From Sinorhizobium fredii USDA 257 (GTDB lineage: Bacteria > Pseudomonadota > Alphaproteobacteria > Rhizobiales > Rhizobiaceae): DNA of 64,000 bases. Below are positions 12,548 to 64,000 of the stretch, in pieces. Both the position numbers and the translations under genes were made by a program. The stretch covers positions 4,588,001-4,652,000 of the forward strand of contig NC_018000.1 of assembly GCF_000265205.3 (NCBI RefSeq), in the 5' to 3' direction. The first letter of the stretch is position 1. Every line of letters begins with the position of its first letter. The notes under the pieces were generated by a model. It saw nothing but the letters and a program-made list of their open reading frames with translations. It was not told the origin of the DNA and did not search any database.

Positions 12548-12570
12548 TGCGTTCTCCTTTCCGAGAGCAA

Positions 12571-12597
12571 TAAAAAAGGCCGGGCGAACCCGACCTT
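12571..12597 (-). terminator. Rho-independent terminator downstream of cspA
   Basis: Read on the reverse strand, a nine-pair stem (AAGGTCGGG with CCCGGCCTT, one G-U pair) closes a TTCG tetraloop and is followed by a run of T. It lies about 100 bases past the cspA stop. Confidence 0.8.
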
Positions 12598-12698
12598 CCC
12601 TATCATCTCAACCGGCCAGTGCCAGTACATCCGTGGTCAAAGGCTGGGAGATGATAATCCTGTGGGATGCGGTGATGAGCACAATCGCGAGCGCACAC

Positions 12699-12908
12699 TT
12701 AAAGGGCGCGCAAATTTTCCGCCGACGTCTTGCCCGTACGACGATCCTGCGCAAGCTCATAGCTAACTTTCTGACCATCCTTGAGGGTGGATAGCCCCGC
12801 GCGCTCTACCGCCGAGATGTGTACAAACACATCTGCCGCGCCGTCATCAGGCTGGATGAACCCAAAGCCCTTGGTGCTGTTGAACCATTTTACTGTACCA
12901 GAAGCCAC
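12699..12908 (-). CDS. cspA: Cold shock protein, CspA family
   Basis: The 69-residue protein is a single cold-shock domain with RNP1 (KGFGFI) and RNP2 (VFVHIS) motifs and a conserved GTVKWFN start. It binds single-stranded RNA or DNA and acts as an RNA chaperone. I start it at GTG 12908, giving M-A-S-G-T-V and the usual family length, with AAAGGT upstream; an upstream ATG would add 11 atypical residues. The region upstream is long and may contain a structured cold-responsive leader. Rhizobia carry several paralogues, so the symbol is generic. Confidence 0.93.
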
Positions 12909-16592: not shown

Positions 16593-16648
16593 TGGCCTGC
16601 TTCCGTCCCTTTTGTAAGGTTTGGGGTGATTAGCTTGTTTGAGGACAT

Positions 16649-16672
16649 AAAAAAAGGCCCCATCAGGAGCCT
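16649..16672 (-). terminator. ilvIH attenuator terminator
   Basis: On the reverse strand AGGCTCC-TGAT-GGGGCCT forms a seven-pair stem (one G-U) followed by seven T, ending 56 bases before the ilvI start. It lies downstream of a leader peptide with Val-Ile-Leu-Val-Val codons, as expected for transcription attenuation by branched-chain amino-acid supply. Confidence 0.85.
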
Positions 16673-16678
16673 CGTTCA

Positions 16679-16726
16679 GCGCATGGGTGGCTACCGCCGG
16701 ATGGTTACACCATCCTGCCCATGCGC
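16679..16726 (-). promoter_or_regulatory. ilvIH leader RNA pause/anti-terminator hairpin
   Basis: Arms GCGCATGGG (16718-16726 read in reverse) and CCCATGCGC (16679-16687) are perfectly complementary over nine bases. They enclose a second hairpin GGATGG-TGTAA-CCATCC (16699-16715). The leader peptide's stop codon lies in the inner loop. A ribosome stalled on the branched-chain codons at 16732-16746 would sit just before this structure and could favour an alternative fold; I did not resolve that alternative pairing. Confidence 0.7.
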
Positions 16727-16761
16727 CGTCCCACCACAAGAATAACCGCGAAGTTTTTCAT
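16705..16761 (-). CDS. ilvL: ilvIH leader peptide
   Basis: A short gene encodes the 18-residue peptide MKNFAVILVVGRRMGRMV followed by TAA. Residues 6-10 are Val-Ile-Leu-Val-Val, exactly the amino acids made by the pathway. The ORF ends inside the leader hairpin and is followed by the terminator at 16649-16672. This is the classic arrangement for ribosome-mediated attenuation; shortage of charged Val, Ile or Leu tRNA would stall translation and allow ilvIH transcription. No function beyond regulation is implied. Confidence 0.85.
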   Translation of the reverse strand: MKNFAVILVVGRRMGRMV

Positions 16762-62162: not shown

Positions 62163-63038
62163 TTGAGCGAGATACGTCTTTTCGTCACCACCACCGAGAC
62201 GCAGGCGGGAGCCGTTCTCGACGTCATGAGCGTGAACTTCGAAGACGAGGGTTACGCGGTCGCGACCATGGAGATCGACGAGAAGCGCGACGTCTGGGAA
62301 GCCTCTGTCTATATGATGGCGGACGAAGAGGCGAGTGTGAGGGCCCGCCTTGCCGATGCGCTCGCCGCCGATTTTTCCCACCTTCCCATCGAGCGTGAGG
62401 TCCTGCCGGAGATCGACTGGATTGCCAGGTCGCTGGAGGGCCTCGCCCCGGTGCGCGCCGGCCGTTTCGTCGTCCACGGCTCCCATGACCGGGACAAGGT
62501 GAAGACCGGCGAGATCGCCATCGAAATCGATGCGGGTCAGGCCTTCGGGACCGGCCATCACGGCACGACCGCCGGCTGCCTGGAAATGCTTGCCGGCGTG
62601 GCACGCTCGCGCCGTATCGGCAACGTCCTCGACCTCGGCACCGGGAGCGGCGTGCTGGCGATTGCCGCCTGGAAGCTCCTGCGTGTGCCGGGGCTTGCGA
62701 CCGATATCGATGCGATCGCGACCCGCGTCGCCAGCGAGAATGCGCGCCGCAACGGCGTCGTCGCCGGCCTGACCTTTGCTACCGCGCCCGGCTTTCATTC
62801 GACCGCCTTCGGCGCGCATGGTCCTTTCGATCTCGTCATTGCCAATATTCTGGCGCGGCCGCTGATGAAGATGGCGCCCCAACTCGTCGCCAATCTCGCG
62901 CCCGGCGGCTCGGTCATCCTTTCCGGCATCCTCGCCGAACAGCGCTGGAAGGTGCTTGCAGCTTATAACGCCCAGCGGCTCAAGCATGTGCGGACGATCT
63001 GGAGAAACGGCTGGGTGACGATCCACCTGACGAAATAG
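62163..63038 (+). CDS. prmA: Ribosomal protein L11 methyltransferase
   Basis: The 291-residue SAM-dependent methyltransferase trimethylates ribosomal protein L11. It has a SAM-binding motif VLDLGTGSGVLAI, a preceding QAFGTGHHGTT motif characteristic of PrmA, and a substrate-region FDLVIANILARPL. It starts at TTG 62163 with AAGGA upstream. It ends about 85 bases before a strong bidirectional terminator. Confidence 0.94.
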   Translation: MSEIRLFVTTTETQAGAVLDVMSVNFEDEGYAVATMEIDEKRDVWEASVYMMADEEASVRARLADALAADFSHLPIEREVLPEIDWIARSLEGLAPVRAGRFVVHGSHDRDKVKTGEIAIEIDAGQAFGTGHHGTTAGCLEMLAGVARSRRIGNVLDLGTGSGVLAIAAWKLLRVPGLATDIDAIATRVASENARRNGVVAGLTFATAPGFHSTAFGAHGPFDLVIANILARPLMKMAPQLVANLAPGGSVILSGILAEQRWKVLAAYNAQRLKHVRTIWRNGWVTIHLTK

Positions 63039-63122: not shown

Positions 63123-63160
63123 AAAAAGGCCGCCCGATCCATCATGGCGGGCGGCCTTTT
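63123..63160. terminator. Bidirectional Rho-independent terminator
   Basis: AAAAGGCCGCCCG and CGGGCGGCCTTTT form a perfect 13-base stem around an 11-base loop. On the forward strand four T follow, suiting prmA termination; on the reverse strand five T follow, suiting termination of the candidate sRNA at 63123-63305. Confidence 0.9.
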
Positions 63161-63305
63161 CGAAACAAAGGCGATGCCGAAGCATCGCCTGCTGGCCGGC
63201 TTGTGACCGACCATGCCCGCGAGCTTGAGGAGGAGGAGCGCTCGAGCGGGCTCTACCGTTCCGAAATTGGCCACCTTGAGGGAGGAGGAGAACAGACGAC
63301 CAATT
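63123..63305 (-). ncRNA. Candidate sRNA with anti-Shine-Dalgarno loops
   Basis: The reverse strand reads as two hairpins whose loops carry CTCCTCCTCCC (63265-63305, eight-base stem GACCAATT/AATTGGCC) and CTCCTCCTCCTC (63215-63251, stems GCCCGC/GCGGGC plus GAGC/GCTC). They are followed by a GGCGATGC-CGAA-GCATCGCC hairpin (63169-63190) and a 13-base-stem terminator. No protein-coding gene follows on that strand except prmA antisense. This layout matches rhizobial alpha-r14-type anti-SD sRNAs. The promoter is not clear; a TTCAAA/GATAAT pair upstream is one option. Confidence 0.65.
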
Positions 63306-63591
63306 ATCTCGGAACTGCAGTCTTTTGAACTGCCGGACGTTCGTCCGTGTTCGTTGGCGCGCTTATAACCCATTATTTCAATAGAGAAAGATACATTGGC
63401 GCATGGGAGCCATGCACCTCACGCATATGTATGATAAATGCGCGATCCCAAATCATCATCCTGCACGCGTTGAAGCGCCCGGCGAGCGGGTTGTTCATGG
63501 CAGGATGTCGCCTCTTTCCCCCGAAGCGACCTTTCCGCTAACATGGCGCCACATTCCCTGCGGTTCTCCGCCAAACCCTATGGAAATAACC

Positions 63592-64000
63592 ATGTTTCAG
63601 TCCTTCGAAGTCACCTCCACGCCCCAGTTCGGCAAGGAGCGGGCCACCGCCTTGCGTGCCGCTTTCGCGCCGCTCGGGATCGACGGGTTCCTCGTACCGC
63701 GGGCCGATGAGTTTCAGGGCGAATATGTGCCGGCCTCGTCCGAACGGCTCTCCTGGCTGACCGGCTTCACCGGATCGGCAGGTGTCGCCCTCATCACGCA
63801 GCGTGAAGCAATTGTCTTCGTCGACGGCCGCTACGTGACCCAGTTGAAGGAGCAGGTGGACGGCAACGTCTTTACCGGCGGCGACCTCGTCGGCGAGCCG
63901 GCGCATGTCTGGCTGGAGGCGCACGCACCGAAAGGTTTCCGTCTCGGCGTCGATCCCTGGCTGCACACCGCGGCCGAAGTCCGCCGTCTCGAAAAGGCGC
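63592..64000 (+). CDS. pepP: Xaa-Pro aminopeptidase (PepP-type), N-terminal part
   Basis: At least 136 residues begin MFQSFEVTSTPQFG and contain the creatinase N-terminal fold: ALRAAFAPLGIDGFLVPRADEFQGEYVPAS, LTGFTGSAGVALI and VFVDGRYVTQLKEQV. It matches long-form aminopeptidase P, which removes N-terminal residues before proline. ATG 63592 or the nearby in-frame ATG 63580 could start it. The metal-binding catalytic C-terminus lies beyond the window. The preceding sRNA locus is on the opposite strand. Confidence 0.9.
   Translation, partial: MFQSFEVTSTPQFGKERATALRAAFAPLGIDGFLVPRADEFQGEYVPASSERLSWLTGFTGSAGVALITQREAIVFVDGRYVTQLKEQVDGNVFTGGDLVGEPAHVWLEAHAPKGFRLGVDPWLHTAAEVRRLEKA

Follow-up and report, generated by a model that had tools for sequence, protein, structure and literature searches.

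A single-copy Sinorhizobium RNA with two anti-Shine-Dalgarno hairpins, encoded between prmA and pepP and probably descended from the 3' end of a small mRNA

Introduction

Several small RNAs carry motifs complementary to the Shine-Dalgarno sequence (anti-SD motifs) and provide a background for the locus described here. Members of the alpha-r14/NfeR1 family (RF02344; SmelA075/SmelA099, the 'cuckoo' RNAs) hold such motifs in three or four hairpins, the terminator among them. In NfeR1, anti-SD loops of this kind are reported to silence target mRNAs, and the NfeR1 promoter contains an LsrB site, TGCA-N6-GCAT, at -72 to -57 (PMC10746234). AbcR1/AbcR2 (alpha-r15) also contain anti-SD motifs, and control by LsrB/VtlR is reported for them. 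CcsR, which we take to be the same as RS0680a, comprises four homologous RNAs. An RNA of the CcsR type has two hairpins with anti-SD motifs (PMC3927594), and the CcsR RNAs lie 3' of a DUF1127 gene (PMC8625941).

An additional RNA, known from S. meliloti, has been detected but hardly characterised. SmelC531 (Sm26) was mapped to the minus strand of strain 1021 at 2321050-2321287, with a length of 238 nt (PMC2873474). Sm26 gave Northern bands of ~135 and ~200 nt in strain 2011, was lower in saturated cultures and higher with SDS, ethanol or phosphate starvation, and had BLAST matches in R. etli and R. leguminosarum (Valverde et al., PMC2573895). The available parts of these sources list it as a detected RNA only, with SmelC531 typed as cis-antisense, and describe neither anti-SD loops nor ORF ancestry nor targets. 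We also found no description of its anti-SD loops or of an ORF origin in the open-licence literature, which is not proof of absence.

Results

The window analysed here is a 64,000-nucleotide stretch of the Sinorhizobium fredii USDA 257 genome. In it, prmA (+) ends at 63038 and pepP (+) begins with an ATG at 63592, and a row of hairpins lies between them on the minus strand (Table 1). The first-pass annotation had proposed a minus-strand small RNA with two anti-SD loops in this interval, at 63123-63305, and covariation and the reported transcript of the ortholog (both below) bear this out. The minus-strand hairpins are real and both anti-SD motifs fall in predicted loops, but the limit at 63305 cuts hairpin 1, whose stem reaches 63320. 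The GGCGAUGC hairpin and the terminator hairpin that it had named are likewise present, the terminator being G+C-rich. From the sequence, the 5' end is predicted near 63356, 6 nt past the -10; the equivalent stretch in S. meliloti 4H41 is 235 nt, and the sequenced length of SmelC531 is 238 nt.

Table 1. Predicted features of the small RNA gene and its promoter, in window coordinates.
Feature	Position	Strand	Remarks
Small RNA gene, ortholog of S. meliloti Sm26/SmelC531	63123..63356	-	~234 nt
Terminator hairpin with U run, symmetrical	63123..63161	-	
Hairpin 4, GGCGAUGC-UUCG-GCAUCGCC, then UUUGUUUC	63170..63189	-	
Hairpin 3, variable	63193..63213	-	Absent from L033, L034, L037
Hairpin 2, loop CUCCUCCUCCUC	63215..63251	-	Stem CCCGCUYGAGC/GCUCGCGGG, strongly conserved
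Hairpin 1, loop GUUCUCCUCCUCCCUCA	63253..63320	-	From fold and covariation alignment
-10-like TATAAG	63362..63367	-	Each of the 30 loci examined has TATAA
-35-like CTTTCT	63385..63390	-	17 nt from -10; conserved, small changes
Conserved dyad GCATGGCTCCCATGC, upstream of -35	63401..63415	-	From 30-locus alignment
LsrB-like box TGCGTGAGGTGCAT	63412..63425	-	About -69 to -56; motif and spacing conserved

Folding of the reverse strand gives -89.9 kcal/mol for 63123-63305 (z = -5.5; none of 200 shuffles folded as well) and -114.1 kcal/mol for the whole 234 nt (z = -7.0). Since the opposite strand also folds well (z = -3.7), folding energy alone cannot pick the strand, and it is the covariation and the ortholog's minus-strand transcript that do so. 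Two hairpins have CUCCUCCUCC-type loops, with the CUCCUCCUCC(C/U) motif unpaired in both. The ten-mer CTCCTCCTCC occurs twice in the window, at 63229-63238 and 63281-63290, each time on the minus strand, against an expectation of 0.17 (at least two copies in 2 of 100 shuffles). In hairpin 1, the lower stem pairs CUGC..GUUCCGA with UCGGAAC..GUAG. Hairpin 4 occupies the position of the terminator in many other genera, and the symmetrical terminator may end prmA transcripts as well. Elsewhere in the window, Rfam matches ar35 (12569-12728, minus strand, 64.4 bits) and Atu_C8 (16639-16759, minus strand, 126.1 bits).

With a 321-base query, the locus was found in 31 of 32 genomes of the genus, the sole miss being G009, with a completeness of 70%; a weak match came from one further member of the family. 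Thirty loci were extracted, of which 27 were aligned after exclusion of three near-copies (L019, L026, L028). Both anti-SD motifs are invariant among these 27 Sinorhizobium sequences, and two-sided changes are seen at 7 of the 72 predicted pairs. For a wider sample we took the best 80 of 314 named loci encoding PrmA. An anchor of the hairpin 2 type adjoins prmA in 76 of these 80; among the others, L102 and L105 carry anti-SD hairpins whose stems differ, L079 stops at a contig end, and L113 has no anti-SD hairpin. Because our model R1 retained hairpin 2 alone, covariation was counted with a second model, R2, on 43 chosen loci. The 37 left out were near-copies or loci without two such hairpins; L102 and L105 are not in the alignment, having scored only 16-18 bits. 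In these 43 loci, 24 of 33 pairs vary on both sides (182 such cells), a level reached in none of 500 shuffles, and 96.4% of 1365 cells are paired, compared with 80.8% in shuffles and 29-42% when the structure is slid along the alignment. The structure itself guided this alignment, and relatedness among the sequences raises counts of this kind, but the slid controls fall far below. The first-pass annotation had allowed that the loops might prove unconserved and the stems might belong to the forward strand; instead, the loops are invariant in Sinorhizobium and the covariation favours the minus strand.

An order-wide search with R1 gave matches in 11 of 297 genomes, eight of the 13 in the same family and three outside it with weak scores; these were counted by score irrespective of prmA, those below ~38 bits may be alpha-r14, and R1 gives low scores to loci that have a single anti-SD hairpin.

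The S. meliloti ortholog is Sm26/SmelC531, as judged from map distance, strand and length. SmelC809 overlaps RNase P and SmelC524/525 are tmRNA in the 1021 catalogue (PMC2873474), and RNase P lies 35,743 bases from the end of the terminator in 1021 by those coordinates and 35,776 in 4H41, on the same strand. From one strain to the other, the distance between tmRNA and the element changes by 3.4 kb and that between tmRNA and RNase P does likewise, which places the strain difference on the prmA side. The Sm26 intergenic region was printed as 1270 bp, SMc04453-SMc01885 (PMC2573895), a length that disagrees with the 994 bp of prmA-pepP in 4H41; no correspondence of these two gene names to prmA and pepP was found. 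From the RNA start to the U-rich tail of hairpin 4 is ~194 nt, and this stretch may correspond to the 200-nt Sm26 band. Other candidates were set aside: EcpR1 (SmelC291) by its place downstream of divK-pleD, SmelC525/sra49 as a tmRNA fragment, and SmelC500 and SmelC507, considered on size and place only, once the RNase P distance had fixed SmelC531. In 4H41, an extra 108-aa ORF, Cys/His-rich and with an HNH-like look, lies between prmA and the RNA (L057, 2946-3272, minus strand).

The promoter of the RNA gene is sigma70-like, and upstream of it the window has a box, TGCG-N6-GCAT, that is one base off the published NfeR1 site (TGCG, not TGCA). A TGC[AG]-N6-GCAT box is found upstream in 69 of 77 loci, and TGC-N7-GCAT in 71 of 77. 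In 62 of the 77 the box sits 57-58 nt ahead of the -10; the other 15 have no box at that spacing, and 33 of 3850 letter shuffles contained one. The conserved motif and spacing suggest that the promoter is probably activated by LsrB. Compared by eye, the A. tumefaciens VtlR box, GCAT-N3-TG-N3-T, does not fit the window box.

The first-pass annotation had likened the RNA to alpha-r14 and suggested a divergent member or else a new one. The Rfam ar14 model (RF02344) gives 18.2 bits at this locus, against a gathering score of 58.8 that seven true alpha-r14 copies elsewhere in the genome pass; no Rfam family matches the prmA-pepP locus at its gathering score, and neither does suhB/ar15, whose AbcR1/AbcR2 members differ from this RNA in structure. 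Membership was rejected on score and hairpin count: the unpaired CCUCCUCCC-type motif occurs in two hairpins and not three, and the terminator loop lacks the anti-SD motif that it has in all seven folded ar14 copies. Could the RNA nonetheless be a divergent paralog of those seven that has lost its third anti-SD hairpin? The loop motif is the same, the LsrB-like box is as for NfeR1, the ar14 model gives an end-to-end alignment with its 18.2 bits, and R1 in turn finds ar14 copies with scores of 17-38 bits, although the shared motif alone would produce such cross-matches. The score, however, is far under threshold, the stems are unrelated, and this single-copy RNA has its own fixed, conserved place and relatives with an ORF, so that we consider such a paralogy unlikely. 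The choice between the two options offered is decided on other grounds: the RNA is a separate, positionally conserved element of the Rhizobiaceae, with a small ORF in front of it in relatives.

Two further observations concern alpha-r14 itself. Two tandem copies lie just upstream of two DUF1127 genes on the same strand (G000:C1:3752638-3753048 and 3751736-3752392; L038, L040, L130, L131), another pairing of an anti-SD RNA with a DUF1127 gene. Words similar to GCAATG(C/G)TGCGATGCA occur upstream of alpha-r14 copies; this repeat-like sequence is found between the terminator and prmA in several genera (L078, L092, L105, L129), and none was seen in the window.

The detection of Sm26/SmelC531 was already known; what is new is a small ORF between the promoter and the hairpins in relatives. 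It is present on the same strand in 36 of the 80 named loci (best 80 of 314) and falls into three types, A (12 loci, 57 aa), B (20 loci, 57 aa, with L116 read as 55 and L126 as 46) and C (4 loci, 51 aa). It is absent from 29 Sinorhizobium loci, from 11 loci of the R. giardinii/herbae/Pararhizobium group and from L125; L079, L097 and L113 were left unclassed. The median uncorrected pN/pS is 0.51 (65 pairs), 0.50 (144) and 0.15 (6) for types A, B and C, and the ORF is under weak to moderate constraint by this measure. Types A and B align across all 57 columns (E 1.1e-9; L116 and L129 are 51% identical), while blastp finds no match between types C and A. In a profile comparison, type A matches six DUF1127 proteins of this genome with a probability of 91.7 over 25 columns, and one of 27 homologs carries the source name YjiS (DUF1127 family); the ORF proteins have no DUF1127 match in Pfam or NCBIfam. 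Type A is likely, though not proven, to be DUF1127-like.

The end of this ORF runs into the first hairpin. The lower 5' arm of hairpin 1, CUGCAGUUCCGA, aligns with the final ORF codons and stop of other genera, and by eye the Sinorhizobium arm, CUGC(A/G)GUUC(C/U)GA against CUACGC(A/G)UUCUGA in Rhizobium, looks like a remnant of the ORF end. On folding, the base of hairpin 1 takes up all three bases of the stop codon as paired positions in 18 of 20 type B loci, the exceptions being L116, where it is shifted, and L126. Ten type A loci were folded: L129 shows full stop pairing, L110 one base, L078 and L092 pair it elsewhere, and six show none; the same pairing is seen in none of the four type C loci. 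L126 itself, whose ORF is cut short at 46 aa, keeps the stem made from its former end, an intermediate state. Since Sinorhizobium lacks the ORF and has kept the stem, the RNA probably descends from the 3' end of a small mRNA. A PrmA tree (quick method, unrooted, 78 of 81 rows labelled) requires two changes of ORF state, and in it an open branch (80) unites Sinorhizobium (99) with the giardinii group (100). An unrooted tree does not establish loss over gain, and we favour loss of the ORF because type A resembles a member of an old family.

An alternative is that the hairpins are a cis-only 3' UTR element, serving stability or termination of a former small mRNA and of prmA, with the Sinorhizobium RNA a relic without trans targets. 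That hairpins follow an ORF in 36 of 80 loci and that the terminator is symmetrical would suit it; yet the loops are invariant across Sinorhizobium and the stems covary there although no ORF remains, and a separate ortholog transcript is reported. We regard a purely cis role as improbable, more so than alpha-r14 paralogy. Least credible by far is a strong bidirectional terminator with chance CU-rich sequence, in which the forward strand forms the structure as its z of -3.7 would permit, given the covariation over hairpins 1 and 2, the conserved promoter, the invariant loops and the reported minus-strand transcript of the ortholog.

A trans-acting RNA is better in keeping with these features. 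Its loops are of the 16S anti-SD type, and most simply they would therefore pair with ribosome binding sites rich in GGAGG. Genome-wide, the pattern GGAGGAGG-N3-9-ATG occurs at 74 sites and the reversed pattern at 16, though some of the ATGs may be internal, and an ORF of at least 80 aa is present at 18 of the first 30 of the 74. When 10 chosen from these 18 were compared with Pfam, 8 matched transporter families, a fraction that has no background control and in which L187 encodes the same protein as L186. Transporter mRNAs are plausible candidate targets.

Discussion

Taken as a whole, the explanation that we prefer, with a probability of roughly 0.7, is a single-copy, trans-acting anti-SD RNA that was formerly the 3' part of a small mRNA. 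A sigma70-like promoter, probably under activation by LsrB, would drive minus-strand transcription of an RNA of ~234 nt in the prmA-pepP interval, and this RNA folds as a row of hairpins of which two hold the invariant CUCCUCCUCC(C/U) unpaired. Either loop would then pair in trans with several mRNAs at their GGAGG-rich ribosome binding sites and block translation; many of these mRNAs may be for transporters. Silencing of targets by the RNA is inferred from its loops, and it is most likely a repressor of many mRNAs. In other Rhizobiaceae, the same promoter and hairpins flank a small, partly DUF1127-like ORF whose stop codon falls in the base of hairpin 1; Sinorhizobium would have lost this ORF and retained the stem.

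A more specific history, which we hold to be somewhat better than an even bet, would begin with an LsrB-controlled, DUF1127-like small mRNA bearing 3' anti-SD hairpins and its stop codon in the first stem. Sinorhizobium and the R. giardinii/Pararhizobium group would then have deleted the ORF but held on to the promoter, the loops and the stop-codon stem, so that an autonomous RNA acting in trans remained.

The likeness to CcsR is one of arrangement, and no sequence homology is claimed. Both RNAs have two anti-SD hairpins, and where CcsR lies 3' of a DUF1127 gene, the relatives of the prmA-side RNA lie 3' of the small, partly DUF1127-like ORF. Unlike CcsR, the Sinorhizobium RNA has no ORF and so does not form part of a DUF1127 gene's 3' UTR, and it is a single copy rather than one of four homologs. 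The comparison suggests that the link between a DUF1127 small gene and an anti-SD RNA, of the Rhodobacter type (ccaF1-CcsR), also exists in Rhizobiaceae.

For Sm26/SmelC531, detected but hardly characterised so far, our analysis provides a structure together with a likely mechanism and an evolutionary history. If the proposed descent is true, one transcript in other genera would yield a small protein as well as an anti-SD RNA, and translation termination would be able to open the hairpin. The graded series of loci in which the ORF is present, truncated or absent may thus offer a test bed for how the tail of an mRNA becomes a free regulatory RNA.
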